From: Mesorhizobium sp. NZP2077
GTDB taxonomy: Bacteria > Pseudomonadota > Alphaproteobacteria > Rhizobiales > Rhizobiaceae
DNA: 64,000 nt
Direction of reading: 5' to 3'
Assembly: GCF_013170805.1 (NCBI RefSeq)
Contig: NZ_CP051293.1
Location: 6,206,001-6,270,000 of the forward strand
In this document: positions 19,093-42,767 of the stretch, in pieces
Position numbering within the stretch: the stretch's first letter is position 1
How the letters are laid out: each line of letters begins with the position of its first letter
The notes under the pieces: model-generated
What the model saw: only the letters and a program-made list of their open reading frames with translations
Databases searched by the model: none
Told to the model about the DNA's origin: nothing
Translations under genes and position numbers: made by a program

Positions 19093-20838
19093 ATGAATCA
19101 AGCAACTGCGCAGCGCCGCCTTGCAGCGATTCTAGTTGCTGACGTCGTCGGCTACTCGCGCCTCATGGAGGCAGACGAAACGGGCACTCTCGCGGCACTC
19201 AGAGTGCGGCGAAAGGGGATCGTCGAGCCGATTGTCCGTGAGAATGGTGGCCGAATTGTCAAGTTCATGGGCGATGGTGTGCTTGTGGAGTTCGCAAGCG
19301 CAGTGAATGCCTTGAGATGCGCCCTCGACATGCAGAAGCGGATGGCCGAGTCCAATGAAAATCTGGCTGATCGCAAAAGGATCGTGTTGCGAATTGGGGT
19401 AAATCTTGGCGAGGTAGTTGGTGAGGGGTCAGACATTTTTGGCGATGGGGTGAACATCGCCGCTCGCCTGGAAGGTTTGTCGGAGCCGGGTGGCATCTGC
19501 ATTTCCGGAAAGGTTTATGACGAAATTCGGGGCAAACTCGACGTCTCAGCCATAGACATGGGCGAGGTTGCGCTCAAGAACATTACTCGGCCGGTAAGAG
19601 CCTTCCGCATCACGTCTGGGATTACCGCAAGACGGCTAGTCGAGTCGCGGGAACCTGTCGATAGCCGGCCGTCGATTGGAGTTCTGCCGTTCACCAACAT
19701 GAGTGGCGATCAGGAGCAGGAGTACTTCGCCGACGGCATCACAGAGGACATTATCACCGAACTGGCGCGAAATCGTGGGCTGTTCGTGATCGCACGGAAT
19801 TCGTCCTTTACGTTCAAGGGGAGCTCCGTAGACATCGCCGACGTCGGCCGAAAGCTCGGCGTGCGCTATGTTGTCGAGGGCAGCGTCCGCAAAGACGGCA
19901 AGCGTGTGCGCATCACAGCCCAGTTGATAGAGGCAGTAACTGGGAGCCACGTCTGGGCGGAGCGTTATGATCGTGACTTGGAAGATATCTTTGCCGTTCA
20001 AGACGAGGTGACCAGAAGCATCGTCGCGGCCGTTCCGGGGTATGTTGAATCCGACGTCGTGAAAGCATCACGGAGCAAGCCTACCGAAAGCTTGGGCGCG
20101 TATGATCGCTATCTGCGCGGCTTAGTAATCACAAACCGCTGGCGCAATGACGACATCCCCCAGGCCATAGCGGAATTCGAAAGCGCAGTGAAACTGGACC
20201 CAACGTTCGCCCGCGCTCATGCTCTGTTGGGCCAGGCGCACCTGCGTGTCTACTGGCAAACACTGGCCCCGCTCGCGTTGCAATCAGCAAACCAAGAAAC
20301 TGAACTCGCCGTGCGACTCGACGGCGAGGATAGTAGGTGCTTGGGTATTCGGGGGGCGTGTCTTATGCTCAACAGGAACTTCGGCGAGGCGTCTGAAACT
20401 TTCCAACGTGCCCTCCAACTGACACCTGATGACGCCGATCTCAATGACATAGTGGCGTACTACCTGCTTTGCTCGGGACAGGCGAGCGAGGCTATCGAGA
20501 GATCGCTCAAAACTATCCGCGTCAGTCCGCTGTTCCTTCCGGGATCTCTCCGTGAGACTATGGGCATGGCATTCATGATGACGCGACAGTACGAGGAGGC
20601 GATAAAGTCTTTCGCCACTATCAGCAGCCCCTATTACTATATCCACGTTTATATGGCCGGATGCCTGGCGAAGCTCGGGCGTCTCGATGAAGCGCGGGCG
20701 CAAGGCCGTCTGGCAAACGAACTCAAACCAGATTGGCCTAGTGTCGATTGGGGCTATCAGTACACAGGAGAAGAATATAGGGAGCACGAGCGCGAACTGG
20801 CCCACCTGGCGATGGACGCCCTGGTGGACCGACCTTAA
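19093..20838 (+). CDS. Class III nucleotidyl cyclase with TolB-like and TPR domains (copy 3)
   Basis: 581 residues. Cyclase motifs: LAAILVADVVGYSRLMEADE, VKFMGDGVLVEFASAVNALR (Lys, Asp), FGDGVNIAARLEGLSEPGG. The TolB-like part has SIGVLPFTNMSGDQEQEYFA, LGVRYVVEGSVRKDGKRVRI and HVWAERYDRDLEDIFAVQDE. TPR helices cover about residues 340-570. No signal peptide or membrane span. It is transcribed away from copy 2, and the two may share a promoter region (18872-19092). Confidence 0.9.
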   Translation: MNQATAQRRLAAILVADVVGYSRLMEADETGTLAALRVRRKGIVEPIVRENGGRIVKFMGDGVLVEFASAVNALRCALDMQKRMAESNENLADRKRIVLRIGVNLGEVVGEGSDIFGDGVNIAARLEGLSEPGGICISGKVYDEIRGKLDVSAIDMGEVALKNITRPVRAFRITSGITARRLVESREPVDSRPSIGVLPFTNMSGDQEQEYFADGITEDIITELARNRGLFVIARNSSFTFKGSSVDIADVGRKLGVRYVVEGSVRKDGKRVRITAQLIEAVTGSHVWAERYDRDLEDIFAVQDEVTRSIVAAVPGYVESDVVKASRSKPTESLGAYDRYLRGLVITNRWRNDDIPQAIAEFESAVKLDPTFARAHALLGQAHLRVYWQTLAPLALQSANQETELAVRLDGEDSRCLGIRGACLMLNRNFGEASETFQRALQLTPDDADLNDIVAYYLLCSGQASEAIERSLKTIRVSPLFLPGSLRETMGMAFMMTRQYEEAIKSFATISSPYYYIHVYMAGCLAKLGRLDEARAQGRLANELKPDWPSVDWGYQYTGEEYREHERELAHLAMDALVDRP

Positions 20839-25464: not shown

Positions 25465-27936
25465 ATGTTCCGATTCCTTCTGATTATGCTGTTGCTTGTG
25501 GCGTTGCCGGCGGCGGCGATGGCCGAGAAGCGCAGCGCGCTGGTCCTCGGCGACGCCAAGTACCAGTCGGTGCGCGAATTGAAGAACACGGTGGCTGACG
25601 CCACGGCGATGAAGGATGCGCTGCGGGCGCTCGGTTTCGACGTGACGCTGGAGATCGACAAGGACCTGCGCCGCACGCGCCGCGCACTCGAGGATTTCAG
25701 GCAAGATGCCGCTGGTTCCGATGTCGCCCTGGTCTATTTCGCCGGCCACGGCGCTGAGATCGACGGCGACAACCGGCTTCTTCCGACCGATACGGATGTG
25801 TCATCTCTCGACTCGTTGAAGGCGAGCACCTTGCCGTTGAACGAGGTGCGTGACACCGTGACCTCGATCGCCAAGGTCGGGCTGGTCATTCTCGACGCAT
25901 GCCGTGATGACCCGTTCGGCGCCGGGGATGGCTCGGGCCGTTCGGCCGTTGCCATCGCCAAGAGAGTGGCCGGCAGCGTGAAGCCAGGCCTCGGCCGGGT
26001 TGGGCGCGCGGAGAACGTGCTGTTCGCCTTTTCAGCCGCTCCGGGGGAGACGGCTGCGGATGGTGATGGCGAGCATTCGCCGTTCAACGCGGCGCTGACC
26101 AAGTATCTCGGCACCGAGGGACTTGAGATCCGCTCGGTGCTGACCCTGGTGCAACAGGAAGTCTATGACCAGACGCGTGGCAAGCAGTTGCCCTATATCG
26201 AGAACGGCCTGCCGCAGCTGTTCTTCGCCGAGAAGTCGGACACGCCGCTGCCGGAACGCGAGCGTTTGCTGCTCGCCATGGCCGACATTACCCCGGACCT
26301 GCGTACAGAGATCGAAACGATCGCGGCGGGGCACGACATGCCGTTGGCACCCCTCTATGGCGCGGCTATCGAAAGCGGACTCGCCCAAGCGGCCAGGGCC
26401 GACCAGGTTGCTCAGCTGGGCCAAGCCGCCGATGCGTTCGTGAAGACGCGAAACGATTTAAAGACGCTGGCGTCCGACGATCCCGATGTGGTGCGCCAGC
26501 GCGCAGAGGCGGAAAACAAACTCACCCTTGGTGAGTTCGATGCTGCGCGCGCCGCCTTCGGCAAGGCCATCGGCATCGACGCCGCCTCGCGCGACAAGCT
26601 CAAGGCGAATTTCATCGAGCGCACGCTTAGCCAGGTAGCTTCGCTGTCCTTGCGTGCCGGCGGCTCGCTGGTATCGTTGAAGTACCAACTGGCGATCGAG
26701 GACTACCGCGCCGCCTCAGTTCTGTTCGACGACCTGACAGACACCGCACTATCGGACGGCGGCCTGAGAAACAAGATGATGGTTCAGTTCTATCTTGGCC
26801 AGACCCTGGCGACGGTGGGCAATGCAAAGGACGCGCTGACCGCCTATCAGCACGCAGTGCAGACAGGCGAAAGTCGTGTCCGTCGAGACCCGCGCAACCT
26901 GAGTGGACAGCGTGAATGGTCGGCCGCGCTCGTACGCCTGGCCAACAGCTTGCGCGACAGCGGCCAGGCCGACAAAGCGTACGATGCCTACAACTCCAGC
27001 CTCGTGGTTATGCAGCGTCTCGTCGGGGCGGACCCGCACAACGCACAGTGGGAAAACGACCTTGGCGCAAGCCTCCATGGTATCGCGCTTCTGGAGACGG
27101 ACCGAGGAAACCTCGCGGAGGCTGAAAGGCTGCACCAGCAGGCCGCGCAAGTGTCTCGCGCGCTCATCGCGTTGGAGCCGAACAGTCCTATCCATCGAAG
27201 GGAACTGGCTGTGGCTCAAATGAGCCTGGGCGATCTCGTTGGTAGCGTCGGCAATTCGCAAGCCGCGCTGCCAGCATACCAGGACGGTTTGAAGACGCTG
27301 GAGGAAGCGGTGGCGCTGGCGCCGCCCAACACCTTCAATCAGGACCTGGTGGTGATGCATCTGCGCGTCGGTCTGACATTGCTGCACCTGCGCCGGAACC
27401 AGGAAGCCGCTGCCGAATTTCAGCAAGGCGAGGAGATCGCTCGGCAGGACATCGAAAACGATCCGAACAACGACGATTTCGCCAGGGCCTACGCGGCGGC
27501 GACGAGCCAACTCGCCGCTGCGCAGTTGGCGACCGGCGACGTGCTCGGAGCTGTCGCGACGTACCGGCGGGCAGTCGCTTTTATCGGTCCAAATGCAAGG
27601 GATAAGAAAGGCGAATGGCTAAAGCTCGCGGCAATCGGCAATGGCGGCCTGGGCGATGCCTGCGCGGCCGTTCGAGACGTGAAATGCGCGTACGATGCCT
27701 ATCATGATGCTCTTGAAGAGCAGACAGCGCTGGTGCATTCGGATCCAAGAAATGTCTTTGCGCAGATGGCGCTGGCGCTCTATCACAAGAAGCTAGGCGA
27801 TGCAGGCGACAATCGCCGCGTGCACTACCAGGCCGCGCTGGACATTCTGCTACAGCTCAAAGCGGTAGGCGCCTTGCCTCCAGCCTATCAGTCTTGGATC
27901 GATCTGACGCGGCAGGCCGTTCAGAGCGCGCGCTGA
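25465..27936 (+). CDS. Exported caspase-fold (peptidase C14) protein with TPR repeats (copy 1)
   Basis: 823 residues. A signal peptide (MFRFLLIMLLLVALPAAAMA) is followed by a caspase p20-like domain to about residue 250. The catalytic His is in VALVYFAGHGAEIDG (H95) and the Cys in GLVILDACRDDPF (C146), so it should be an active protease. Long helical TPR-like repeats fill residues about 380-820 (AYQHAVQTGESRVRRDPRNL). I start at the ATG at 25465, where the signal peptide begins; the open frame to 25342 adds 41 unlikely residues. It converges on the FecR/CHASE2 pair and resembles the caspase at 32187 in layout but not closely in sequence. Periplasmic location is inferred from the signal. Confidence 0.88.
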   Translation: MFRFLLIMLLLVALPAAAMAEKRSALVLGDAKYQSVRELKNTVADATAMKDALRALGFDVTLEIDKDLRRTRRALEDFRQDAAGSDVALVYFAGHGAEIDGDNRLLPTDTDVSSLDSLKASTLPLNEVRDTVTSIAKVGLVILDACRDDPFGAGDGSGRSAVAIAKRVAGSVKPGLGRVGRAENVLFAFSAAPGETAADGDGEHSPFNAALTKYLGTEGLEIRSVLTLVQQEVYDQTRGKQLPYIENGLPQLFFAEKSDTPLPERERLLLAMADITPDLRTEIETIAAGHDMPLAPLYGAAIESGLAQAARADQVAQLGQAADAFVKTRNDLKTLASDDPDVVRQRAEAENKLTLGEFDAARAAFGKAIGIDAASRDKLKANFIERTLSQVASLSLRAGGSLVSLKYQLAIEDYRAASVLFDDLTDTALSDGGLRNKMMVQFYLGQTLATVGNAKDALTAYQHAVQTGESRVRRDPRNLSGQREWSAALVRLANSLRDSGQADKAYDAYNSSLVVMQRLVGADPHNAQWENDLGASLHGIALLETDRGNLAEAERLHQQAAQVSRALIALEPNSPIHRRELAVAQMSLGDLVGSVGNSQAALPAYQDGLKTLEEAVALAPPNTFNQDLVVMHLRVGLTLLHLRRNQEAAAEFQQGEEIARQDIENDPNNDDFARAYAAATSQLAAAQLATGDVLGAVATYRRAVAFIGPNARDKKGEWLKLAAIGNGGLGDACAAVRDVKCAYDAYHDALEEQTALVHSDPRNVFAQMALALYHKKLGDAGDNRRVHYQAALDILLQLKAVGALPPAYQSWIDLTRQAVQSAR

Positions 27937-28063
27937 TGACTCCGACCGCTCTTGGGTAACTCACGACGTTGAATACCTAGCAGGTAGGACTCAACTTGCG
28001 GCGAGCCGCAATCTCTGGCGTGGTCGCCGGCACTGTCTGCTTACTGGCTTTGGTAAGGCTAAC

Positions 28064-28102
28064 TTGAACGGCCGACATCAGGCGGTGGGTTCAACCGGTC
28101 AT
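28064..28102 (+). repeat. 39-base repeat, copy B, at the left end of IS30
   Basis: See copy A at 25214. Here GAACGGCCGACATCA leads into GGCGGTGGGTTCAACCGGTC, which also appears in reverse at the right end of the IS30 copy (to 29304). Confidence 0.65.
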
Positions 28103-29304
28103 CGCAACACCTTCTGTAGCCTATCGGCCGGCGTTTCGAAGTCCAGGGTTTTTCGGGGTCGCTGATTGAGCCGCAGGGCGACGGCGTTGAGTTGGGCCTG
28201 CGAGACATGGGAGAGGTTGGTTTCTCTCGGGAAGTACTGCCTGAGCAGGCCGTTGGTATTTTCGTTGCTGCCGCGCTGCCAGGGACTTCGCGGATCGCAG
28301 AAGTAGACCTGTAGATCGGTTGCAACGGTGAAGCTCTTGTGCCGAGCCATCTCCTTGCCCTGGTCCCACGTTAGCGAGCGCCGCAACTCTTCGGGCAATG
28401 TGCCGATCGTCTGGGCGAGGGCCGCCACGACGGTGGCCGAGTCCCTCCTCGCCACCTTTACAAGCATCGTGAACCGGCTGTGTCGCTCGACGAGGGTGGC
28501 GATGTGCGTGTCGTTCGCCCCGGTGAGCAGATCACCCTCCCAATGGCCTGGGATGGCGCGATCCTCAGCCTCGGCGGGGCGCTCGCGGATGGAGATCATA
28601 TCGAGTATTTGTCCTTGCCCCGTCCGGCTCTGTGCGCCTTTGGCGAGCCGCATCTGTCGTTTGGTACGCAGGTGCGCTGTTAGTTCCTTCTTGAGCACCC
28701 CTCGCGACTGGATGAATAGACTGCGATAGATCGCTTCATGAGATATCCGCATGCTTGGATCGCCTGGGTACTCTCGCCTCAGCCAGCCCGCTATCTGCTC
28801 CGGGGACCATTGCAGCGCTAGCTTTTGCGCCACCCGCCACCGTAGCCGCCCAGAGCATGCCAGGCGACACCGCTTCGGGCGCAGCGCTCGCTCCCAAGCA
28901 TACTTGTCGGCCCGGGTTGCACGTACGCTTGTGCACCGCCATTGCGCGAGATCTCGCGACATATTGTCGATGGGGATCGCCCGAGACTTCGTGCAATAGC
29001 GCGGATCGCAAGACCCGCCGCGATCCCGCGAGAGATCTCTTCGCGCTCCGCCAGCCCGAGCGCCAAGGCCGCTCTACGCCTAGCTGACGGAGCAATGCCG
29101 CCGTGTAAGGATACGATCCGTTGAACGCCGGTCTTGTTCCGGCGGTCCAGTGCCCGCGAGATCGACGAAATGCTCTGACCTTGCTTCCATCGCTCCCAAA
29201 GCTCGACCTTCTGCGCTGACGTAAACCAGATCCGTGACGTCACCATGCAACACCTCTTCATCCTCTCAGATTAAAGCGTGTTGCGACGACCGGTTGAACC
29301 CACC
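28084..29304 (-). mobile_element. IS30-family insertion sequence
   Basis: About 1.2 kb. The left end reads GGTGGGTTCAACCGGTCATC followed by GCAACAC; the right end, reversed, reads GGTGGGTTCAACCGGTCGTC and GCAACAC, differing by one base in 27. The outer 17 bases may belong to the element or to a palindromic target into which it jumped, since IS30 elements favour palindromes and the same 22 bases occur without IS30 at 25231. No direct target duplication is obvious. It sits between the first caspase gene and the FecR-like gene, in non-coding sequence. Confidence 0.8.
28099..29246 (-). pseudogene. IS30-family transposase with a one-base deletion
   Basis: The N-terminal HTH half (MVTSRIWFTSAQKVELWERW, AIARSLGRSPSTICREISRN) is in one frame; it loses frame after GGAQAYV. 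The rest, in the next frame, starts RATRADKYAWERALRPKRC and holds the DDE domain: GHWEGDLLTGANDTHIATLV (first Asp), RSLTWDQGKEMARHKSF (second Asp), RGSNENTNGLLRQYFPRETN (Glu). One C missing in TAC(C)GTGCA restores a single reading frame. The ATG at 29246 has GAGG upstream. If the deletion is real the element cannot move by itself. Confidence 0.85.
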
Positions 29305-29386
29305 GGCGCAAACCGAACGAACACACTTACCCGTCCGCGAAACGTCGGATTCTGGCATGTCCTCAGTTGTCTGACGCCATGGCAGC

Positions 29387-30343
29387 CTATTTCCTGGTGA
29401 TGTTTTCCTGGCCAACAATGGCTTGAGCAAAGAAATCCTGGTTCTCACTGGCCAGAACCAGCAACCGCGAGATGGCTTCCACTCGCCATGTCGAGGGCGC
29501 GCGCCGAAGAAGGAATAAAGCCTCTTCGACCCGATACTCCTGGCTCGACGGCTCGTCGATGGTGGCGCCTTCAAGCACCGGGACATCCTCGGCGGCCACA
29601 AGGCGGATAGGCAGCTCGAGGGATATGCCGTTGGCGCCTTTGATCTCGAGTGTGTAGACGCCTGGTGCCACGCTGGACATCGTCAGGTTCGCGTGACGAT
29701 CATTTGTGACGTCCAGCACTTTCGCGGCGCCGCCATGTTCCTTGACCATGGTAATCGAATAGGGCGCCGTGCTGCCGACCCAGCGGATGGAAAGCGTATG
29801 GCTGGGGTCGATCGACTGCTCGCCAACGGCATAGACGCCCGGCATAATCAGATATTGAGAGGGTATCGTCTCGCGAGTGTCGCCGACAATGGCAGCTGCC
29901 ATATCGCGCGTCTCTTGCCAATCCTTGCCGATGATACCAAGCGTAAAGTCCAGGAGGCGCTGAAACCTGCCGATCACGGGGACCTCGGGTATTTCCACGA
30001 CATCGGGAAACTTGACTGAACGCACGGTGTTGTCCGGCATGTTGATCTCTGCGCTCACGCCGGCGCCAGGGCGCACGATATCGCCCGGCTGCAGGAAACA
30101 GCCGGCCTTTGCCGGCTGTGCATCGAGGCCGCGTTCGACGCTGAGCCATGTCTCAGCGCCGGCCTGCCGTTCGACCTTGATCACGCTTGCACGGGTGTCG
30201 GGGCCACATTCACAAAGTGGTGGTTTCTCGTCCTGCCCCAAGGCAGCTTGCACACAGGACAGGGCCACGGCGACAGCCGTTGCGGTGCCCAAGGCGAACC
30301 GCTCGAACTTCCGGCGTACTTCGCACCGCTTGTCACACGCCAT
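29387..30343 (-). CDS. FecR-like periplasmic protein
   Basis: 318 residues. An N-terminal signal (FALGTATAVAVALSCVQAALG) comes after a charged start. Residues about 55-105 resemble a FecR sensor domain: a Cys-rich CECGPDTRASVIKVERQAG, then GCFLQPGDIVRPGAGVSAEI and MPDNTVRSVKF. The central part is a beta-rich domain (ITMVKEHGGAAKVLDV) and the C-terminus is helical. ATG at 30343 has GAGGGGG upstream. It is 29 bases after the CHASE2 gene in the same direction, so the two form an operon. FecR proteins normally pass a signal across the envelope; here no sigma factor gene is adjacent. Confidence 0.68.
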   Translation of the reverse strand: MACDKRCEVRRKFERFALGTATAVAVALSCVQAALGQDEKPPLCECGPDTRASVIKVERQAGAETWLSVERGLDAQPAKAGCFLQPGDIVRPGAGVSAEINMPDNTVRSVKFPDVVEIPEVPVIGRFQRLLDFTLGIIGKDWQETRDMAAAIVGDTRETIPSQYLIMPGVYAVGEQSIDPSHTLSIRWVGSTAPYSITMVKEHGGAAKVLDVTNDRHANLTMSSVAPGVYTLEIKGANGISLELPIRLVAAEDVPVLEGATIDEPSSQEYRVEEALFLLRRAPSTWRVEAISRLLVLASENQDFFAQAIVGQENITRK

Positions 30344-30372
30344 TCTGCCCCCTCGCGGCCCGTCTGCAGAAT

Positions 30373-31896
30373 TCACTCGCTAGCCGGTGGAATATGCGGG
30401 CGGCTTCCAATCGCCTCCACCCAGGTCAGAGCCGCGGAAAGCGCCTCTCGGATGACCTGCAGGATAGAGGACATTCCCTCGAAGGCAACGGCAATGATCG
30501 GCGACATGACCGCTATGGCCGTTCCGGCCGCCAGGCTGGAGAATGCATGAACGGCGCCAAGAAAAAATACCGCAAGGATGGTGACGACAATCGCGAGCGC
30601 GGCCAGGACGAGTTTGGCGATGTGGTTGACAGGCGATCGCAGCCGCTCGTGTGCTTGATGGCCGGCGACATGGAAGACGGCGCCGATCGAACTGGCAAGG
30701 CCGATCAGCAGCAGTTCCCAGGCCCAGCCTTGATACTCGTCGACCAAGGTTCCAGAGGCGATCGCCCGGATGGCGTTGGCGTGCACCATCGCGCCTGGCA
30801 TGCGCAGCCCCAGAGGTGTCGCATGCAGATCCCCGGAGGCGGCGTAGCCGCCGCCGATGACGACGACCGCCCCGTCCAGCAGCGACAGGTTCTCACTCAG
30901 ACGCTGTTGCAGTTCATCAGCTTCGATAGTCTGGAAGACGAATGGCGCATAGCTGTAGGCGGCGGTAACTGCGCTGCCCGGATCCGACGGCAGCGAAAAC
31001 AGAATCCGCAGGACCGACAAGTCGTCATTGTCCGACGGCTCGTAAACGTGGTTAGCCACATTGAGGGGTTTGGCTTCGCACTTTGCGCTCGATCCGGGAC
31101 GCGACGCCGGAAACAGACATGCAAGACCGCTTCGGTCGACTTTTGCGTCCATCAGCGCGGCGCCAAGCAGTCCAAAGCCGGAAATGCGCCGCGCCGCCGC
31201 GGGCGTATCCCCGCGCATCAGGTGCCAGGCATAGACCGAGCGCACGACATTGTCCGGATCGGGTTGGAGCAGCGGCGACGCAAACCAGAGATCCGGATGT
31301 GACGATGGCGAAGCATCGGGACTGCATTTGGAGTCGTCGAAAATGGATGGATAGGCCTGGGCAACCGGCCGTGCCGGATTCGAGGCTTCGCTCACCACCG
31401 GCCGCACGGCCAATACGGGGATCGACTTCGCGATCGAATATGTCTCGGCGCACAGCAGCTTGTCGGTGTCGCTCGCTTTGTCACCCACCTGTGGCGCGAG
31501 CTCGACGTCGAGCACCACAAGCTTCATCGGAGTTCGGCCAGCATTGGCGCTAGCAAGCGCCTTCAGCATCTCGACGAGTTCGTCGCGAGGCGTCGCGAAG
31601 CCGGTTGCGCAGGCCTCACCGCGGGCCTTGGCCCAGATACGACAGGTCGCCTCACCGACATTGATAAAGACGTAGCGTACGCTCTTCTCCGACTGGACGT
31701 CGGCCAGCCGCTCCCGTGCAAGTTCGCGCATGATAACGTCGGATACGCTGCGGTCGAGCGACCGCACGGCCTCGACATGCCGCAGCGCGGTCATCGCCAG
31801 ACTGACCACAAGCGCCAACGCGCACAGCAATAGCCACTCTATTGCAAATGCCCGCAACAAGTTCTGCCATGGATGCGAGCTTGGTTCGTTGTTCAC
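30373..31896 (-). CDS. CHASE2-domain membrane sensor without output domain
   Basis: 507 residues. One N-terminal membrane helix (EWLLLCALALVVSLAMTAL), a large extracytoplasmic CHASE2 domain (about 40-395: RSLDRSVSDVIMREL, TPMKLVVLDVELAPQ, GAVVVIGGGYAASGDLHATP, MPGAMVHANAIRAI), then three C-terminal helices (WELLLIGLASSIGAVFHVAG, IAKLVLAALAIVVTILAVFF, SLAAGTAIAVMSPIIAVAF). CHASE2 usually precedes a cyclase, GGDEF or kinase. Here only about 35 residues follow the last helix, so the signal must be passed to another protein. It heads the operon with the FecR-like gene and is divergent from the second caspase gene. Confidence 0.85.
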   Translation of the reverse strand: MNNEPSSHPWQNLLRAFAIEWLLLCALALVVSLAMTALRHVEAVRSLDRSVSDVIMRELARERLADVQSEKSVRYVFINVGEATCRIWAKARGEACATGFATPRDELVEMLKALASANAGRTPMKLVVLDVELAPQVGDKASDTDKLLCAETYSIAKSIPVLAVRPVVSEASNPARPVAQAYPSIFDDSKCSPDASPSSHPDLWFASPLLQPDPDNVVRSVYAWHLMRGDTPAAARRISGFGLLGAALMDAKVDRSGLACLFPASRPGSSAKCEAKPLNVANHVYEPSDNDDLSVLRILFSLPSDPGSAVTAAYSYAPFVFQTIEADELQQRLSENLSLLDGAVVVIGGGYAASGDLHATPLGLRMPGAMVHANAIRAIASGTLVDEYQGWAWELLLIGLASSIGAVFHVAGHQAHERLRSPVNHIAKLVLAALAIVVTILAVFFLGAVHAFSSLAAGTAIAVMSPIIAVAFEGMSSILQVIREALSAALTWVEAIGSRPHIPPASE

Positions 31897-32186
31897 GTCG
31901 ATCTGGTTTCTTGGATTTGGAGGTCGGCGGCATGCTCAAATCTAACGATAAATCATGAGTTCACGCCAACCGCGAGTCAATTGGCTGATAAGGTCTCCAG
32001 AGAACTGACGGGTGGATGGTTTGGTTGCAAGGTGGAGGCTTGACGACGGCGGTCGAAGACTTCGGTAGAAGGATTATCGGTTCGGCAGGTCCGCCGTCTA
32101 TGTCTAAGTCCCACTGAGTTTGCGCCATTGAGCCGCCAGCGTCGACGCATTAGCATGGGGCGGATTTGGATCTCTCGGGCGGAAGG

Positions 32187-34766
32187 ATGAGGATGGGCAG
32201 CAGGCATTGCGGGAGCATATTCGCGGTGCTGCTGGCGCTGTTCTTCGCCATGATTTCACACGCGCCTCCAGCCGACGCCGGTGACGCCAGGCCGATGCGC
32301 GGCGTGGCCTTGGTCATCGGCGAGTCCCGCTACGATAATTTACCCGCTCTGCCCAACCCGGCCAACGACGCCCATGCTGTCGACCGGCTCCTGGGCGAAC
32401 TCGGCTTCGACGTCACCTCGGTCACCGACGGCGACAAGGCCAAACTCGACCGGAGCCTGCAACGCTTCGTCGAGGACGCTGCGGGCGCCGATGTGGCGCT
32501 GCTCTACTATTCAGGACATGGCATCGAAGCCGGTGGCGAGAACTATCTGGTGCCAGTCAGTGCCGATCCATCGTCTCTCACTGACGCCGGCAAAACCCTC
32601 GTACCCTTGTCTGGCCTGCTGGCCGAGTTGAAGGCCAAGGTTCCCGTCGCCATCGTGCTGCTCGATGCCTGTCGCACCAATCCGTTCCCGCCAGGCGCAA
32701 CCATCACCACGGCCTCCGGCCCGGCGCCCGTCGCCGCCGCCGGGCTCAACCTGACGCGCGGAGCTGCGCCTCTTGCCGATACCACTGATGCACCGCAGAG
32801 CCTGGGCGAGGTGATCGGCTTTGCCGCCGAACCCGGCCACGCCGCGCTCGACGGCGATGCTGGCGGCAACAGCCCCTATGCAGCGGCCCTGCTGAAACAT
32901 CTTGCCGCTGGCGGCTTTGCTTTCGGCGATGTGATGACGATGGTGGCCGAAGAGGTTTATGTACAGACCAGCGGCCGCCAGCGGCCATGGATCAATGCCA
33001 GCCTGCGCCGGCTGCTCTATTTCGGCCTGTCGCCGGAACAGGCGACGGGTGACGATGCCGCCATCCGCGGCGAGCACCGCAAGCTGCTGCTCACCATCGC
33101 CACGACGCCTCCCGACACCAGGCGTATCGTCGAAGCCGCCGCCAATTCAGAAGCCGTCCCACTCGGCACGCTCTATGGTCTGCTTGCGGCACTTGGCACC
33201 GATGTGCCCAGCGATCCGCGCGAGCTGGACCGACTGCTGCGCGATCAGACCGAGCATCTCAAGACCATCATTGCGGAACGGCGGGCGCTGAAGAGCACCG
33301 ACGTGGACATCGTGCGCCTGTCGGATCTCGCCGAAAAGGCGCTTGCCGACGGTGCGGTGACAGCGGCGATCCAGTTTCAGCAACAGGCCAAGGCGCGCGT
33401 CGCGCAACTGTCCAAAACCGTCGATCGGGCCGAGGCCGACGTGAAAACCAGGCGGATCGAATTCGCCGAAGTCTACAGCCGCAGCGGCGATACCTATTTC
33501 CTCGGCTTCCAGCAGATGAAGGCCGCCGACGACTACCGCAAGGCGTTCGAACAGGTGAAGAAATGGGACACCGGCCTCGCCTGGCATTACAAGCTGGCTG
33601 AAGCCAATGCCATCCGCGATTACGGTACGTTTCGCGGCGACAACAAGGCATTGCAGGTCTCGATGAGAACATTTGCCGAAGCGGCCAAGCTGCTTCCGCA
33701 GGACCAACTGACACCGCAATTGGTCATGACCCAGAACGATTTAGGCCTGGCGATGTTTATGTATGGGGAGCGTCAGAGCGATTCCGCGTCGCTGGAGAAG
33801 GCCGTAGGCATCTTCTCCAACATCGTCTCCAGCGGCATCAAACAGGTTGATCCTTCGCTCTGGGCAGAGGCCCAATCCAATCTCGGCACCACGTTGATAT
33901 CGCTTGGAACGCGCAAGAGCGGACCAGAGCAATATCAGCAGGCGGCCGTGGCTTTCCGCTCCGCCCAGCAGGTCATTTCGCGGACGCAACAACCTCTCAA
34001 ATGGGCGCTGGCACGCCGGGGCGAGGCAGACGCGGTGGCCTGGATCGGCCTGCGTGGGAATGAGCCCGACCGGTCGCGCGAGGCCGTCAATGCCTATGAG
34101 GACGTCCTGACGACGCTGACTCGCGAACTCGACCCACTCTCCTGGGCTGCGGTCCAGGATAGCCTCGGCAGTGCGCTATGGGCGATTGGCGATCGGCTGG
34201 ATGGCAGCGAGTTGCTGCAACAGGCCGTACAGGCCTATACCGCTGCACTCAGCGAAAACACTCGTGAGCGCGTGCCTCTCTGGTGGGCCGCGGGCCAGAA
34301 CAATTTGGGCAATGCGCTCTGCTCGCTCGGCCAGAGAGAGCAAGGCACGCAAAGCCTGGAGCTGGCGGCTGACGCCTATCGCAGCGCGCTGGAAGAATGG
34401 ACCCGCGAGCGCGAGCCCTTCAACTGGGCAACCGCGCACAACAATTTGGGGCGCACCCTTGTGATAACCGGCCAGCGCTCCGGAAACGACGCGACCATTG
34501 AGGCCGGAATTGCATCCTATCAGGAGGCTTTGAAGGAATGGACGCGTCAGAGCGCGCCGCTGCAATGGGCCTCCCTACAGGGCGGCCTCGGCGTAGCGCT
34601 GTTCGGTCTCGGCCGCGATAGGGCGGATGAAAAGCTTCTCCGGGACGCGCGGCAGGCGACGCAGTTGGCTAGGACATTCTACCGTGAGGCCGGCTACCCC
34701 CAATTCGATGGGTCTTTCAGGGATCGCCTAGCTGAGATTGACCAAGCGCTGGCCGCGCTGAAGTAG
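32187..34766 (+). CDS. Exported caspase-fold (peptidase C14) protein with TPR-like repeats (copy 2)
   Basis: 859 residues. Signal peptide (IFAVLLALFFAMISHAPPADA) then a caspase domain with His in VALLYYSGHGIEAGGENYLV (H111) and Cys in VAIVLLDACRTNPFPPG (C162); WI(N)ASLRRLLYFG closes the domain. The C-terminal half holds at least four near-identical units of about 50 residues beginning around residue 520, each with the pattern W-A-x-x-Q-x-x-L-G-x-x-L (for example PLWWAAGQNNLGNALCSLGQ and PFNWATAHNNLGRTLVITGQ). ATG at 32187 is chosen; one at 32193 is equally placed after GGAAGG. It is divergent from the CHASE2/FecR operon across 290 bases. Confidence 0.88.
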   Translation: MRMGSRHCGSIFAVLLALFFAMISHAPPADAGDARPMRGVALVIGESRYDNLPALPNPANDAHAVDRLLGELGFDVTSVTDGDKAKLDRSLQRFVEDAAGADVALLYYSGHGIEAGGENYLVPVSADPSSLTDAGKTLVPLSGLLAELKAKVPVAIVLLDACRTNPFPPGATITTASGPAPVAAAGLNLTRGAAPLADTTDAPQSLGEVIGFAAEPGHAALDGDAGGNSPYAAALLKHLAAGGFAFGDVMTMVAEEVYVQTSGRQRPWINASLRRLLYFGLSPEQATGDDAAIRGEHRKLLLTIATTPPDTRRIVEAAANSEAVPLGTLYGLLAALGTDVPSDPRELDRLLRDQTEHLKTIIAERRALKSTDVDIVRLSDLAEKALADGAVTAAIQFQQQAKARVAQLSKTVDRAEADVKTRRIEFAEVYSRSGDTYFLGFQQMKAADDYRKAFEQVKKWDTGLAWHYKLAEANAIRDYGTFRGDNKALQVSMRTFAEAAKLLPQDQLTPQLVMTQNDLGLAMFMYGERQSDSASLEKAVGIFSNIVSSGIKQVDPSLWAEAQSNLGTTLISLGTRKSGPEQYQQAAVAFRSAQQVISRTQQPLKWALARRGEADAVAWIGLRGNEPDRSREAVNAYEDVLTTLTRELDPLSWAAVQDSLGSALWAIGDRLDGSELLQQAVQAYTAALSENTRERVPLWWAAGQNNLGNALCSLGQREQGTQSLELAADAYRSALEEWTREREPFNWATAHNNLGRTLVITGQRSGNDATIEAGIASYQEALKEWTRQSAPLQWASLQGGLGVALFGLGRDRADEKLLRDARQATQLARTFYREAGYPQFDGSFRDRLAEIDQALAALK

Positions 34767-34860
34767 CAATTGCATTTCAACCTACCGCGAGGGGATCGAG
34801 GCTACTCTGGACGGCCACGCTAATCGCGCTGTTGCGCCTTGGACTCCCGGCAGAAGTCGG

Positions 34861-35807: not shown

Positions 35808-36148
35808 CCGAGGCCATGCAACTCCATATCAACGAGATCAGCCGCCATGTCGAAAAGGGCGCCCATGCCGTACTCGTCATGGATCGCGCCGGATGGCACA
35901 CCACCGCAAACCTCAGCATACCGGACAACATCACCCCGATCTTCCTGCCGTCGCGCGCGCCGGAGCTGAACCCGGTCGAGAACGTCTGGCAGTATATGCG
36001 CCAGAACTGGCTCTCCAACCGTGTCTTCGACAGCTATGACGATATCATCGATGCGGCCTGCGACGCCTGGCAGAAACTCCTCGCAGATTCCGAGACCATC
36101 ACATCAATCGGGATGCGCCAATGGGCCCATGTCGGTCAAACCCCATGA
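35808..36148 (+). pseudogene. IS630 transposase, C-terminal half (inverted)
   Basis: Reads TEAMQLHINEISRHVEKGAH, AVLVMDRAGWHTTANLSIPD (second catalytic Asp), PSRAPELNPVENVWQYMRQN (catalytic Glu) and a final IGMRQWAHVGQTP. It has no start of its own and continues, in the original element, from the ALPFAD end of the minus-strand half. Confidence 0.78.
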
Positions 36149-36164
36149 CTCTTGGTATTATATC

Positions 36165-36889
36165 GGCAAACGGCAGTGCGAGAGCCGCCCCGGTACCACG
36201 TGCTGGGCAGATGGCGCCGAACAGGTAGGCGCTCTTGTAGCGCTGGTCGGCCGGCTGTCGCGGCCGCGTGCCGCGTCTGGCCCACTGCCGTACAATCCCG
36301 TTCTTCTGGCCGATCCTTGCTTCGTCCTGGAACCAGATCTCCACCTTCGTGCGCGGCGGCAAGTCGCAAAGATGCGCCTTCAGCGTGCGAGGCCAGTTTT
36401 TTTGAATTCCTCGATGATATGGGCATCCTGCGCCGGATGACGCGGTCGCACACTCATGTGGGAGAAGCCGAGCTTGTGCAGCAGCTTCCCGACATAGCGC
36501 GCGTCATAATCAATGCCGAAGCGGTCCTTGATGGCTTTCTTCAGGTCGATCCGCCGCCAGCGAACGACGCCATCGACGGCACGATCCGGGCCCTTCTCCA
36601 CAAGCGCGGCCAGTTCGGCCTGCTGCTCATGCGACAGCCGGGACGCTGGTCCCGGCGCCCATTGGTCCACAAGACCATCGGGGCCGGCCGTGTTGAACCG
36701 ATGCACCCAGTCGCGTAGCGTCTGGCGATCCATCCCGCCGATCCGGGCCGCATCGGCCCGGCTCATGCCGTCCAGAACCGCTGCGATCGACAACAGCCGG
36801 CTGCTCTGGCGCACATCCTTTGAGTTCCGGGCAAGACGGCGAAGCTCCCCCGCCGAAAAGTTCGTCCGCAACTTCACCGCTGATCCCAT
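36165..36889 (-). pseudogene. IS630 transposase, N-terminal half
   Basis: MGSAVKLRTNFSAGELRRLA, IGGMDRQTLRDWVHRFNTAG (HTH) and LHKLGFSHMSVRPRHPAQDA make up the DNA-binding part. The frame ends at 36380 just after a run of seven A (complement of 36397-36403); the expected continuation (NWPRTLKAHL, VEIWFQDEARIGQKNGIVRQ with the first Asp, KSAYLFGAICPARGTG) is in the -1 frame. This is either decay or the programmed -1 slip used by some IS630 members. It stops matching at ALPFAD, where the inverted half has been joined. Confidence 0.78.
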
Positions 36890-37073: not shown

Positions 37074-38864
37074 TTAAGCCGGGAGGCCAACCTTGCTGAG
37101 GCCATCGAACAGATGGTCTATGTCGGCCTGATCGCGGAAGGGGAGCCGTCCAACATGCTCGGCAAAGGAGTATTTCGGATTGATCTCCATCAGTTCGCGC
37201 CAGACCCGGCCGGCTTCCTCGGCCTCGCCCAAATGGCCGAGCGCGACAGCAAGAAAGGCGCGGGAGAGGTCAGTCTTCGGGGCGAGCTGTATACGCTCCC
37301 TGAACAGCGCCGAGGCAGCTTCGAATTTGCCGGCGACAAGATAGGCAGAGCCGAGAAAGTGGATGTATAGCTGCTTCAACGCGGGATCGAGCCGGATGGC
37401 TTGTTCGATATGGGGAATAGCCGCGAGGGGCTGGCCGCCATAGATGTTGATGATGCCGCGCGAGTTGTGCGCCTGAGCGTAGTTCGGATTGAGATTCAGC
37501 GCCGCGTCCGCCTCAGCCGCGGATCTGGCGAGATCCTTTTTCCACAAGTAGAAGACCGAGGCGACGTAGTGCACGAAGGCAACCTGCGGACTCTTCTGCA
37601 ACGCCAAGCCGACATGGCGCTCGGCCTTTTCAAGCGACTCGCTCCAGCCGTCCGTCCAATGGAACTGCCAGTTGAGCACCTCGGCCATTGCGAGGCCGGC
37701 ATAGGGTTCGCCATAGCTTGAATCCTGGGCGATCGCTTGCGCGAACAGGTCGGTCGAGCGCTCGAACACGTCACGGTTCCTGATGGTCCCCCACAGCGCC
37801 TCGCGCCCGAGCAGGAAAAAGTCGTGTGCCTTGCTACTGGTCGTTTTGACAGCACCAAGCATCGCGGCTTCGCTAGGGCTCAGTTTGATCATCAACGCGT
37901 CAACGATCCGCCGGGTGACCTCGTCCTGGACCGCGAAGACGTCGCTCAGTTCGCGATCGAAGCGGTCGGCCCAAAGGTGTCCGCCGGTTTCCGCATCGAT
38001 CAGCTGAGCGGTAATTCTTACACGGTTGCCGGCGCGGCGGATGCTCCCTTCGAGCACCGAGCGGACACCGAGCTCACGGGCCACTTGCCGCACGTCGACA
38101 GCCTTGCCCTTATAGGTGAAGCTCGAATTTCGCGCGATCACCAGCAGGCCGCTGACCTTAGAAAGGTCGGTGATCACATCCTCGGTTATCCCGTCGGCGA
38201 AATATTCCTGCTCAGGATCGCCGCTCATGTTCTGGAACGCCAACACGGCGATCGAAGGCTTGTCGGACAGCGCGAGCTGTGGCGAAGGCTTCTCCGGCAC
38301 GGCGGGCTCCGCGGGTGCCGCGGGCTTTGCCTGAGCGGGGACTCCGACTTGCAGCGAATAAACTCGGACCGGATCGGCGATGTTCTTGAGTTGCACCGCG
38401 CCGCGATCGTTGATTGCAAGATCGAGCCTTGCCTTAACCTGCCAGTACGCTTGCTCGGAGAGACAGATGCTGCCGGGCTCGCAAATGCCTTCTAGCCGCG
38501 CGGCGATATTGACGCCGTCGCCCATCAGATCGCCGTCGCGCTCCTCCACGACATCGCCCAGATGGATGCCGATGCGAAAGTCGATGCGGCGGTCGGGCGG
38601 CAGCCCGGCATTGCGCTCGACCATGCCATTCTGCACCTCGATGGCGCAACGCACGGCGTCCACGACGCTGCGGAACTCGACGAGGGCTCCATCCCCGGTG
38701 CGCTTGACCACGCGACCATGATGCACGGCGATCGTTGGATCGATCAGATCGCTGCGCAGCGCCCGCAGCCGCGCCAGGATGCGATCCTCGTCCGCGCCGG
38801 CGAGCCGGCTGTAGCCGACCACATCCGAGACCAGGATCGCTGCTATTTTCCGGGTCTCACTCAC
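37074..38864 (-). CDS. Class III nucleotidyl cyclase with TolB-like and TPR domains (copy 4)
   Basis: 596 residues. Cyclase motifs: KIAAILVSDVVGYSRLAGAD, VKRTGDGALVEFRSVVDAVR and DGVNIAARLEGICEPGS, with all metal and transition-state residues. A Pro/Ala linker (about 180-200) leads to SIAVLAFQNMSGDPEQEYFA and LGVRSVLEGSIRRAG, then TPRs (about 340-580, such as ADAALNLNPNYAQAHNSRGI). Its cyclase domain is almost the same as copy 2 over the first 170 residues, so they are recent paralogues. It lies just downstream of the IS630 wreck. Confidence 0.9.
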   Translation of the reverse strand: MSETRKIAAILVSDVVGYSRLAGADEDRILARLRALRSDLIDPTIAVHHGRVVKRTGDGALVEFRSVVDAVRCAIEVQNGMVERNAGLPPDRRIDFRIGIHLGDVVEERDGDLMGDGVNIAARLEGICEPGSICLSEQAYWQVKARLDLAINDRGAVQLKNIADPVRVYSLQVGVPAQAKPAAPAEPAVPEKPSPQLALSDKPSIAVLAFQNMSGDPEQEYFADGITEDVITDLSKVSGLLVIARNSSFTYKGKAVDVRQVARELGVRSVLEGSIRRAGNRVRITAQLIDAETGGHLWADRFDRELSDVFAVQDEVTRRIVDALMIKLSPSEAAMLGAVKTTSSKAHDFFLLGREALWGTIRNRDVFERSTDLFAQAIAQDSSYGEPYAGLAMAEVLNWQFHWTDGWSESLEKAERHVGLALQKSPQVAFVHYVASVFYLWKKDLARSAAEADAALNLNPNYAQAHNSRGIINIYGGQPLAAIPHIEQAIRLDPALKQLYIHFLGSAYLVAGKFEAASALFRERIQLAPKTDLSRAFLAVALGHLGEAEEAGRVWRELMEINPKYSFAEHVGRLPFRDQADIDHLFDGLSKVGLPA

Positions 38865-39165
38865 GTCATGCTCCCTCTATCCAGCCTACTGCAGCCAGAT
38901 CAGTGCCGTCCTTCTCAACATAGAGCCGTTAAGCACAGGGAAGATAGCCCCGAGCCATTGGTCGGATGGTCCGCATAGGATCGACCCAAGTCGTTCGAGA
39001 CAGATCGGCGAAGCGCCAGCCCTGGCGCAATCAAGACGTCCAGCCTGTCGCTAGCCGCGTTTGCTTTCAGGCAGCGGCTAAGCAAATCTCTAGGGCCGAC
39101 ACGCGGCGCAAAGCAGCCACCCGCATTCCGGCGCACACATGCCAGCTGCTAGACCGCATAAGCAT
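38865..39165. other. Gap without a supported gene
   Basis: Contains the promoter side of cyclase copy 4 and the downstream side of the next minus-strand gene. No hairpin, repeat or ORF I can support. Confidence 0.35.
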
Positions 39166-40602
39166 TCAGGAGAGAGCCCATTCCTCATCGGCCGGCGTGA
39201 CCAGCCCGTTCCGCAACCGGCTGTGAAGCTCATGCCATGACGGGTCCGTCACGAAGCCTTTCATCGCTCCACATGCCTCGGCGAAGGAAATGTCGCCCAA
39301 ACGGTCGATAAGATCGCTCATCGCGCCGTTCGTGCCATTTAGGAATAGCTCGAGCGGATCATCATCATACTCAATTACCCGATGTCCCCAAGCACCCGAT
39401 ACGTCGTCGGTTGCGAGAGCCTGCCGAAGATCTTCATCCACGCCTGCGGCCTCGAGCGCCTGGCAGACGACATAGCGCATCAGGGGGTAGTAGATCGGCT
39501 GATAGCTGCCTCCAAGCGCGCGCACGCCGGGCAGGATCGACAAAGCCAGAAACGTCAGCAGGAGATTTGGGATAAGGCTGCGGTTTGCCAGCCGCTCGAG
39601 GATGTCGGAGGCTGTGAAGCACGCCACCTTCATTCCGGTCGCAGGACTGATGAGTTCTCCGGCGACCAGACGGAGCGGTAGCCGTTTGCCATTTTCATAG
39701 AGCCAGAAGAAATCGGTACCGCGCGGGAGCCAGCCACTCCAGGGGCCGGACGCGAGCGCGTCGAGGCCGGCAAGGATATTCGAAGCGAACGTTGGGTCGT
39801 CCAGCAATCTCATGCGTAACCAGGAATCGGCGTCCGACAGGTGGTCCGCCACGAGGTCGGCAATATCCTCATCGTCGATCTGAAGGAAGGCAAAACGGCC
39901 GCCGAACATTTTTGGCCAAAGGATGAGATTGGCTGCCTTGATGGCATGCGCGGGCCGCTCGAATTGCGTCTTCGGCAGAAGGCTACGAAGCAACGTGAGC
40001 GTTTCTCCCTCAGTGTTTGGCTCCGTCGGTAACAACTCGAACCTATAGGACTCCGGCCCGGCTAGCAGGCTGTATCCGATCATCCGGCTTCGGCTGAGGC
40101 CAAAGACATTGATCGGCTTGCCGTCGACAGTGAGCCAGCCTGGCCCTTTGCGTGCCTTTTCAACAAGGTTCACCGTCGAAACGGCATAGGAAACATAGGT
40201 CGAACAGCCATGCGCCGAGAGACCAAGAAGGCTGAAGATATGCGTGTAAAAGGCTTCCGGCTCCATGAGGAGAAGCAAATGAGGGCCTGTCTGCAACACG
40301 CGGCGCCTTTCAAAATCCCTGCAGATTTCCGAAGCGGCATCCGTCGATAGGCCGTTTCGTGTCGCTGCCTTCCTGATGATGTCGAGCAGTTTGGTGAAGG
40401 CTCGAAACCGGATTTCTGGCACGGACCTGGAAGCTGGCGCCTCGAACAGGCGAAACGCGTAGTCGCGTATCGGTCGGGAATGATATGGACTCATCCAGGG
40501 GTAGAGTGCCGTCAGCGACCCCAGGACTGCCTGTTTCGCATCTGCACCTGCTGTTAGCTCTTCCACCTCACGGTGCACCTTTTTCTTGCGTCTCACCGAC
40601 AC
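39166..40602 (-). CDS. Unrecognised 478-residue protein in a possible biosynthetic cluster
   Basis: I do not recognise this family. It has no signal peptide; one hydrophobic stretch (IPNLLLTFLALSILPGVRAL) lies near residue 345. Notable segments are RRVLQTGPHLLLLMEPEAFY, LSAHGCSTYVSYAVSTVNLV, FGLSRSRMIGYSLLAGPESY and GGSYQPIYYPLMRYVVCQAL. The length and mixed alpha/beta composition suggest an enzyme. A GTG at 40602 is used and overlaps the MFS gene by 35 bases; GTG codons at 40578 and just after are alternatives. Tight overlap means it is translated with the MFS transporter, so it probably makes, alters or recognises what that transporter moves. Confidence 0.7.
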   Translation of the reverse strand: MSVRRKKKVHREVEELTAGADAKQAVLGSLTALYPWMSPYHSRPIRDYAFRLFEAPASRSVPEIRFRAFTKLLDIIRKAATRNGLSTDAASEICRDFERRRVLQTGPHLLLLMEPEAFYTHIFSLLGLSAHGCSTYVSYAVSTVNLVEKARKGPGWLTVDGKPINVFGLSRSRMIGYSLLAGPESYRFELLPTEPNTEGETLTLLRSLLPKTQFERPAHAIKAANLILWPKMFGGRFAFLQIDDEDIADLVADHLSDADSWLRMRLLDDPTFASNILAGLDALASGPWSGWLPRGTDFFWLYENGKRLPLRLVAGELISPATGMKVACFTASDILERLANRSLIPNLLLTFLALSILPGVRALGGSYQPIYYPLMRYVVCQALEAAGVDEDLRQALATDDVSGAWGHRVIEYDDDPLELFLNGTNGAMSDLIDRLGDISFAEACGAMKGFVTDPSWHELHSRLRNGLVTPADEEWALS

Positions 40603-41773: not shown

Positions 41774-41879
41774 GAGCGACGTATCCGGGCTGACCGCCGA
41801 TGGATACCTTCTTCCGCCAAGCCTGCTTTACTGTGATGTTGGGATTATCAGATACTTGCTGAGAACCGACACGCGGAGC

Positions 41880-42767
41880 CTAGATTCGACACTTACGACG
41901 AAATTCCGTGGGGCACGTGCCGAAGGCCCGCTTAAAGGCGGTCGTGAAATGGCTCGAACTGCCGAAACCACATTCCATCGCGATTTCCGTCGCCGACAAA
42001 TTGGTCGATCGCAGCATGTCCGCGGATTGCTCCAGCCGGCGCTGCGCAATGAATGCATGAGGCGTCATGCCTGTCGACTGCTTGAAGGCCCGCCAGAAAT
42101 GGAACCGGCTAACCCCAACCTCTTTTGCCAAATCGGCGAGCGTCGGTCTGCCGTCCGACAGCGCCTCGATCATTCCCACCGCGCGCTTGAGATCGAACGA
42201 TGACAAACCTCCTTTCACCGGTTCCTGATGGACGCCGTTCAACCTGAACATTTGCACGAGCAATTGAGTGGCCTGACTCTCCACCATCGTTGCGCTGATT
42301 GGGTCAGGCTGCTTGAGCTCCAATGCAATCCTCTGCAACGCCATCTCAACAGTGCCGTCTCGGAATCCAATCGAAGGCGGCAGGTCTGCCTGGCGACCGC
42401 CTGCCATTCCTCCATACACCTCGTCAGCGAACCTCTGTTCAATTGAGACGAGCAGGTAGGAGGCGGTAGCGTCACCTTCATCCCACCCGGTCCAACTGTT
42501 CCCACCTGGAATGAAGATGATCGAGCCAGCGCGCCGCTGCGAGAATGAGATTCTGCGCCCATTGACGAAGTCCTCTCCGTTGCGCGCCACACCCTTCAGG
42601 TTCAACAAGAACACAGGGCCTGGAAAGGCTATTCTTGTTTCCTGGCGCTCCAGGCCAGTCCTTTTGACAAGATCCGCCCGAACTTGCCCCCAACCCTCAT
42701 ACTGGTGAGCAAGCGTCTGGTGCTGTGATGGGCGAGTCTTGCTTGGGTCGACGTGGAAAGTATGCAC
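41880..42767 (-). CDS. AraC-family transcriptional regulator
   Basis: 295 residues. The C-terminal 100 carry two HTH motifs: LADLAKEVGVSRFHFWRAFK with QSTGMTPHAFIAQRRLEQSA, and ATEIAMECGFGSSSHFTTAF with KRAFGTCPTEFR. The N-terminal 170 residues are a cupin-like sensor (GPVFLLNLKGVARNG, AGSIIFIPGGNSW). It heads the minus-strand MFS/unknown-protein run and is divergent from the methyltransferase gene across 280 bases, so it likely controls both directions. Confidence 0.88.
   Translation of the reverse strand: MHTFHVDPSKTRPSQHQTLAHQYEGWGQVRADLVKRTGLERQETRIAFPGPVFLLNLKGVARNGEDFVNGRRISFSQRRAGSIIFIPGGNSWTGWDEGDATASYLLVSIEQRFADEVYGGMAGGRQADLPPSIGFRDGTVEMALQRIALELKQPDPISATMVESQATQLLVQMFRLNGVHQEPVKGGLSSFDLKRAVGMIEALSDGRPTLADLAKEVGVSRFHFWRAFKQSTGMTPHAFIAQRRLEQSADMLRSTNLSATEIAMECGFGSSSHFTTAFKRAFGTCPTEFRRKCRI

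Follow-up and report, generated by a model that had tools for sequence, protein, structure and literature searches.

A CHASE2 membrane protein without an output domain, a putatively exported FecR-like protein and a caspase-fold protease encoded together in Mesorhizobium: a possible extracytoplasmic proteolysis unit

We analysed a 64,000-nucleotide stretch of Mesorhizobium sp. NZP2077 (contig NZ_CP051293.1; hereafter the window), which covers 6.206–6.270 Mb of the 7.69-Mb genome. An earlier note on this DNA had described four genes, two for exported caspases flanking a CHASE2 sensor and a FecR-like periplasmic protein, and had read them as a possible envelope-stress or self-destruct signalling system. 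We found that three of these genes form a conserved block (29382..34771). They encode a putatively exported FecR-like protein (29387..30376, minus strand), a CHASE2 membrane protein of 507 residues without an effector domain (30373..31896, minus strand) and a caspase, here called caspase 2 (32166..34766, plus strand). Similar pairs of CHASE2 and FecR-like genes in other bacteria also lie beside genes for caspase-fold proteases.

The three genes of the conserved block

The block was delimited by whole-window blastn against a 31.5-kb stretch of the Mesorhizobium plasmid AR07 (L055) and a 20.2-kb stretch of CJ3sym (L053). Similarity to AR07 was confined to 29382–32028 and 32034–34771, with an additional paralogous match between caspase 2 and an extra AR07 caspase, and similarity to CJ3sym was confined to 29384–31981 and 32124–34774. 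Outside 29382–34771, the window had no DNA similarity to either of the stretches compared. The CHASE2 and caspase 2 genes are divergent, as the earlier note had stated, and share an intergenic region (31897..32165). The two segments of homology to AR07 meet within this region, at 32028/32034, the site at which AR07 has its extra caspase, of 44% identity with caspase 2, between the two halves of the block. CJ3sym has caspase 2 downstream of the pair and convergent with it.

CHASE2 is an extracytoplasmic sensory domain, and typical CHASE2 receptors carry a cytoplasmic output domain (kinase, cyclase or GGDEF) after their membrane helices. The window's protein matches PF05226 at 59.2 bits, against a curated Pfam cut-off of 26.3, and no further Pfam or NCBIfam domain was found in it, be it a kinase, cyclase, GGDEF or other output domain. 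Its hydropathy profile indicates one N-terminal and three C-terminal hydrophobic helices, with peaks starting at residues 17, 395, 429 and 454; the CHASE2 domain falls within the approximately 350 residues between the helices, and the protein ends about 35 residues after the last peak. The public annotation of the AR07 gene (L055:15088-16524) uses a 478-residue start, 29 codons downstream of ours, and omits the N-terminal membrane helix. We prefer the 507-residue start because this additional helix is conserved down to 50% identity. The orthologues are 91, 69 and 50% identical to the window's protein, and a ratio of nonsynonymous to synonymous substitution rates (dN/dS) of 0.19–0.27 indicates purifying selection.

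The FecR-like gene is co-directional and contiguous with the CHASE2 gene, either overlapping it by 4 bases (GTG start) or separated from it by 29 bases (ATG at 30343). The FecR label itself found no backing from profiles. The window's protein matches zero Pfam families, and PF04773 has no match in the whole genome; it also matched none of 14 aligned FecR-like members, including the window's, at E values up to 10, in a test in which the HMMER filters drop most matches above an E of about 0.1. A predicted model of poor confidence (predicted local distance difference test score (pLDDT) of 60) contains a beta domain at about residues 50–115, an Ig-like sandwich at about 176–248 and three C-terminal helices. 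Fold searches with it mostly probed residues 140–255, and their weak Foldseek matches include MtxA (chain 4z29) at rank 27, with a probability of 0.97, an E value of 0.01 and a large root-mean-square deviation. The orthologues are 91, 68 and 49% identical, and the gene is likewise under purifying selection (dN/dS 0.18–0.32). Judged by hydropathy and by eye, the N-termini of this protein and of the caspase are of the export type, with a hydrophobic stretch and, on inspection, an AxA-like site.

Bacterial C14 and CHAT proteins are numerous, the function of most is not established and many look exported; most ideas about them stem from cytosolic cell death. Caspase 2 has 866 residues from its first start and matches C14 (PF00656) with an E value of 2e-35. 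Its dyad is intact, with His118 in a GHG motif and Cys169 in a DAC motif, and corresponds to the His111 and Cys162 of the earlier note, which are numbered from a start seven codons downstream. The closest solved chains by sequence are those of the MALT1 paracaspase (E 2e-9). Caspase 2 shares with paracaspase-type C14 proteins the C14 fold and the placement of the dyad in GHG and DAC motifs, but differs from MALT1 in its hydrophobic, signal-peptide-like N-terminus (hydropathy and inspection) and its TPR-type array. The long repeat domain that had been ascribed to it is visible as a TPR superhelix in a model with a mean pLDDT of 70, confident chiefly in the C-terminal half, whereas its TPR matches are all below the Pfam cut-off. 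Across six genomes its dN/dS is 0.11–0.18, again indicating purifying selection. Both GHG and D[ASC]C motifs are present in 27 of 28 caspases checked; a C14 protein at L015:5431-7782 lacks these motifs and may be a pseudo-caspase.

Caspase-fold proteases beside CHASE2 pairs

We defined a pair as a CHASE2 protein without an enzyme domain together with a FecR-like protein, and scored C14 and CHAT genes within the 5–10 kb fetched around it. Pair loci outside the window were found by FecR-like or CHASE2 queries and thus blind to caspases. A C14 caspase or CHAT protease lies beside 12 of the 13 complete pairs (11 of 12 without the window), which come from five lineages. The partner is a C14 caspase in the window, AR07, CJ3sym, three f12 genomes (G314, G350 and G267) and G495, and a CHAT protease in G943, G777, G644, G858 and G755. 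By contrast, none of 60 control CHASE2 loci (28 from the genus, 18 from the family and 14 from the class), with a cyclase subfamily described below set aside, has a C14 or CHAT gene, and a six-frame recheck at an E value of 0.01 again gave 0/60. Fisher's test gives a P value of 7e-13 for 12/13 versus 0/60, a rough guide that ignores relatedness; with one locus per lineage and Mesorhizobium scored as a miss, the comparison becomes 4/5 versus 0/60 (P = 7e-6). These results support the proposed link between the CHASE2 and FecR-like pair and caspase-fold proteases. The protease partners are spread over several caspase clades and CHAT, so the link probably arose more than once.

The loci were collected at several taxonomic depths, by genome searches that score only part of the candidates from a loose first look and may therefore miss some. 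In an order-level sample of 397 genomes, a FecR-like profile found C14 genes beside four relatives in one f12 genus and one in f23. A CHASE2 protein without an enzyme domain accompanies each of these relatives except that of G408, in which the protein and caspase are present and the contig ends before any CHASE2 gene; this locus was not counted among the complete pairs, and order-level matches with stops in G488 and G534 were left out. A class-level CHASE2 search of 385 genomes added five pairs, two in f61 and three in f172. At all five of these alphaproteobacterial loci (L142-L146), a TPR-CHAT gene (CHAT by Pfam) is convergent with the pair. They resemble the window in placing a CHASE2-only and FecR-like pair beside a TPR-bearing clan-CD protease, but CHAT replaces C14, and by Pfam a two-partner-secretion exoprotein gene adjoins CHAT in three of the five (G943, G777 and G644) and a ShlB gene is present in two (G777 and G644). 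The large genes at the corresponding position in G858 and G755 have no Pfam match. Two weak profile matches in a phylum sample of 398 genomes (G1092 and G1261) were dropped, as neither CHASE2 nor caspase is adjacent. A protein search in which 7999 candidates were scored returned seven FecR-like relatives, indicating that the window's own FecR-like subtype is rare. As a side observation, the neighbours of the G495 pair (L132:574-13650) include two caspases, of which one carries fused WD40 repeats, and three mutually similar proteins that look exported. One of the three was scanned and gave a weak match to astacin-type metalloproteases (E 1e-4); these proteins are possible zymogen substrates.

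In the controls, C14 and CHAT genes were sought with profiles and tblastn queries made from the caspases and CHAT proteins of this analysis, not with Pfam, and 8 of the 60 stretches are shorter than 14 kb. The 37 CHASE2 matches in 61 genomes yielded 28 genus controls after removal of the window gene, G207, six cyclase and caspase loci and one match below the cut-off (G219), which has no caspase either. The 18 family controls were hand-picked among the matches listed. At class level, 15 loci besides the window's have a frame shorter than 620 residues, and 12 of them were taken (not G857:C40, G857:C134 and G932): five have a FecR-like partner, all with CHAT; six have neither a partner nor C14 or CHAT and served as controls; and one (G699, 3.5 kb) was too short. 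The remaining eight class controls are CHASE2 loci with longer frames.

Within Mesorhizobium, the FecR-like protein is present in 6 of 146 genomes, intact in NZP2077, G207, G1350 and G1409 and as C-terminal fragments with stops in G208 and G1358. Caspase 2 orthologues, with 85–93% identity, occur in exactly the same six genomes, the next match being 53% identical.

NZP2077 has two CHASE2 genes, and both are head-to-head with a caspase gene. The second encodes a CHASE2-adenylate cyclase with an exported 261-residue neighbour and is divergent from a third exported caspase (L009:4912-9453; G000:C1:6286911-6291452). The caspase arrangement is kept in all five further genes of this cyclase type found among 61 genus genomes (G073, G242, G201, G215 and G222), so that all six loci of the subfamily have a caspase. 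We rejected the idea that the 261-residue neighbour is homologous to the FecR-like protein of the window, since the two have no BLAST similarity and an hhalign probability of 0.6%.

Caspase 1 and the surroundings of the block

The other caspase of the earlier description, caspase 1 (25465..27936, plus strand), has 823 residues. Pfam gives a C14 match with an E value of 6e-40 and TPR matches on an 864-residue frame, and His95 and Cys146 are exactly as had been claimed. An IS30-family transposase region that the earlier account had passed over, with its open reading frame split between two frames (28099..29261, minus strand; NCBIfam IS30, E 1.6e-77), separates it from the rest. Caspase 1 groups with orphan caspases, two of L012 and one of L013, from the same genome (support 100/99), in a clade distinct from that of caspase 2, and it is beside none of three other Mesorhizobium pairs (AR07, CJ3sym and G207). 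We therefore rejected a four-gene system that includes caspase 1, which lies outside the block, belongs to another caspase clade and sits behind an IS30 remnant; in relatives the four genes are not kept together, an outcome that by the earlier note's own condition refutes the four-gene version and leaves the three-gene core standing. The genome has 14 C14 genes, which makes two caspases close together less remarkable. At L012:7037-12424, two closely similar tandem caspase genes stand beside a gene that by eye resembles gyrB.

To the right of the block, small open reading frames occupy 35816-36889, and the one scanned (36380-36889) contains solely transposase-type helix-turn-helix domains, so that the block may have remnants of insertion sequences on either side. 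Three similar genes lie on both sides of the block (17117-18871, 19093-20838 and 37074-38864). Those at 19093 and 37074 were scanned and encode class III cyclase-TPR proteins with weak matches to Pycsar cyclase profiles; the gene at 17117 was judged by eye. A strong nifH match at G000:C1:7064459-7065274, about 0.8 Mb from the window, indicates that the strain may be a symbiont.

Relation to described systems and possible function

Several described systems share parts of this arrangement. The BiofilmReg operon of Burkholderia and relatives comprises genes for a response regulator, a LysM/FecR protein, a CHASE2 histidine kinase and a DUF4136 protein, and likewise encodes an exported FecR-type protein beside a CHASE2 membrane receptor; there, however, CHASE2 and a histidine kinase are fused in one protein, with a response regulator alongside, and the portion of the paper available to us does not mention a caspase (PMC5192318). 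Neither response-regulator nor histidine-kinase domains were found by Pfam or NCBIfam in the three block proteins, and the block instead has a separate, putatively exported protease. MtxA of magnetotactic bacteria, an exported protein with an Ig-like domain, is encoded before a CHASE2-adenylate cyclase; the output there is a cyclase, the accessible text makes no mention of a caspase (PMC4439547) and the structural match to our FecR-like model is weak. Trichodesmium erythraeum has a CHASE2-caspase fusion (PMC2853523, as far as the text was available), and a CHASE2-bearing cyanobacterial architecture also appears in the part of PMC3501461 at hand. That fusion joins CHASE2 and C14 in one signalling unit, but as a single cyanobacterial polypeptide, whereas in Mesorhizobium the two are encoded by different genes, the caspase looks exported and a third component, also exported-looking, is present. 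In Sinorhizobium meliloti, the Clr targets SMc02177 (FecR domain) and SMb20495 (signal peptide and TPR) are extracytoplasmic proteins in a rhizobial pathway fed by CHASE2 cyclases; compared by description only, they differ in their cAMP link and in having no predicted enzymatic function, and a caspase is unmentioned in the available portion of PMC5498481.

Our literature search found no paper joining the term 'CHAT domain' with CHASE2 or FecR, and none on a split CHASE2 and exported caspase-fold protease without a cytoplasmic enzyme. Thus, as far as the available texts go, CHASE2 with an exported FecR- or Ig-type protein and a histidine kinase (PMC5192318) or cyclase (PMC4439547), and the CHASE2-caspase fusion (PMC2853523), are already described, and what appears to be new is the encoding of CHASE2 and an exported-looking caspase-fold protease by different genes, with no cytoplasmic enzyme.

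We tentatively propose that the block encodes a three-component extracytoplasmic proteolysis unit, in which the CHASE2 protein and its FecR-like partner control an exported TPR-caspase, a proposal that we judge to be slightly short of evenly balanced between right and wrong. Given a CHASE2 protein with no output domain and two partners that look exported, the unit probably acts in the periplasm. There, the CHASE2 protein and its periplasmic partner may form a membrane-anchored receptor or scaffold that would keep the exported TPR-caspase inactive, or recruit it. On a signal from the envelope or from outside, the caspase would be released and would then cleave a periplasmic or surface protein. 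The protease would stand in for the cytoplasmic enzyme usual on CHASE2 receptors. This anatomy fits the earlier suggestion that the sensor controls caspase action in the periplasm, although control itself is our inference. Overall, the earlier observation of the gene block is partly confirmed and its interpretation partly supported.

A number of observations weigh against this proposal, and several of them favour a rival explanation, namely that in a caspase-rich genome with much mobile DNA a mobile caspase came to lie beside the CHASE2 pair by chance and has no functional link to it. The genome has 14 C14 genes, 11 of which have no CHASE2 gene near, and an IS30 remnant adjoins the unit. Of the six genomes that share the genes, three (G207, G208 and G1358) show no linkage between them, and the co-occurrence in six genomes was counted without regard to their kinship. 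G207 has the one complete pair without C14 or CHAT beside it; its caspase 2 is 5.4 Mb from the pair along the contig, or 1.8 Mb if the single contig is circular, and is one of three C14 genes near a phage-type integrase, a ParB-like gene and guaA (L198:3405-17969), possibly an island. Between the window and G207, synonymous divergence (dS) is 0.23 for caspase 2 versus 1.56 for CHASE2, which indicates that caspase 2 has a separate transfer history. This can be read in two directions: it speaks against a fixed cassette, but it also suggests that this caspase is gained or retained by genomes that carry the pair. In G208 and G1358, caspase 2 is intact on another contig and the FecR-like gene is reduced to a C-terminal fragment, so that caspase 2 is not strictly dependent on the pair. 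In G208 the right flank of the window is kept (39103-44016, 85%), and of the FecR-like gene just the end remains. No CHASE2 gene lies beside the fragment or caspase 2 in either genome; a genome-wide look for a window-type CHASE2 in G208 found none, and in G1358 the search was limited to the surroundings of these two genes. Moreover, the 13 pair loci represent five lineages, not thirteen independent events, with the window as starting point, and the class and family controls were drawn from other genomes with no correction for the C14 and CHAT density of f12, f23, f61 and f172. Chance adjacency is nonetheless rather unlikely in our estimate, because each of the two CHASE2 genes in the genome stands opposite a caspase, 12 of 13 pair loci compare with 0 of 60 controls, 28 of them from the same genus, caspase 2 and the FecR-like protein occur in the same 6 of 146 genomes, and in CJ3sym the genes are rearranged yet kept together.

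Two further explanations assign the genes a different function. In cell death or anti-phage defence, the CHASE2 pair would sense a breach of the envelope and the caspase would kill the cell. Consistent with this possibility, both caspases partially match the PADLOC caspase profile (E 2.5e-8 and 1.6e-12), although the CHASE2 and FecR-like proteins match nothing in the same scan; the distribution among genus genomes is patchy; and AR07 carries a HEPN-type gene near caspase 2 (L055:6408-7316; a weak match to the PADLOC candidate PDC-S09, E 6e-7) and, some 10 kb past the pair, a Fic gene (L055:27255-28370; a strong match to PADLOC SoFic, E 3e-45). Nothing ties these two genes to the unit, however, and of six window neighbours scanned in PADLOC, four had no match and the two cyclase-TPR genes had only weak Pycsar cyclase matches. 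A review, in the part available to us, proposes membrane CHASE2 orthocaspases as death receptors, but with a cytosolic p20 (PMC7475262), whereas predicted export puts the window's protease outside the cytoplasm. The two-partner-secretion neighbours of the CHAT loci, the sole pointer to a class of substrates, suggest processing of envelope or surface proteins instead of self-destruction. We found no direct evidence for the self-destruct role that the earlier note had raised, and regard death or defence as improbable; regulated processing is more likely than self-killing as the role of the unit. FecR proteins act on sigma factors, and the CHASE2 pair could alternatively be an inward-signalling sensor, like FecR with an extracytoplasmic function sigma factor, with the caspase merely one regulated gene. 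The divergent arrangement with its shared intergenic region, and the response-regulator gene that AR07 carries some 3 kb away from its pair, would suit such transcriptional signalling. The missing cytoplasmic output domain disfavours it, as do the lack of a PF04773 match and the absence of a sigma-factor gene from the annotated 31.5-kb AR07 stretch, the one locus scanned for it. Eight intergenic regions, including 31897-32165, contain no Clr- or Crp-type box at up to two mismatches, and control of the divergent region by a cAMP regulator was rejected on this ground. We consider this explanation improbable as well, slightly more so than death or defence.

Beyond this locus, our proposal of an extracytoplasmic proteolysis unit could extend to a class of CHASE2 receptors that lack a cytoplasmic enzyme and act together with an adaptor in the periplasm and an exported protease of clan CD that is a separate protein. 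C14 proteases of several clades and CHAT proteases would be interchangeable in this role, providing a portable protease switch outside the membrane with envelope or two-partner-secretion substrates; we offer this as a possibility that is more doubtful than not. A recurring genetic link between CHASE2 proteins that lack an output domain and exported caspase-fold proteases would offer a concrete, testable way in which C14 and CHAT proteases could be activated beyond the cytoplasm, and would indicate what purpose a CHASE2 protein that lacks an enzyme might serve. The occurrence of similar units in distant bacteria, with one caspase-fold protease exchanged for another, hints at a little-known form of extracytoplasmic protease control.

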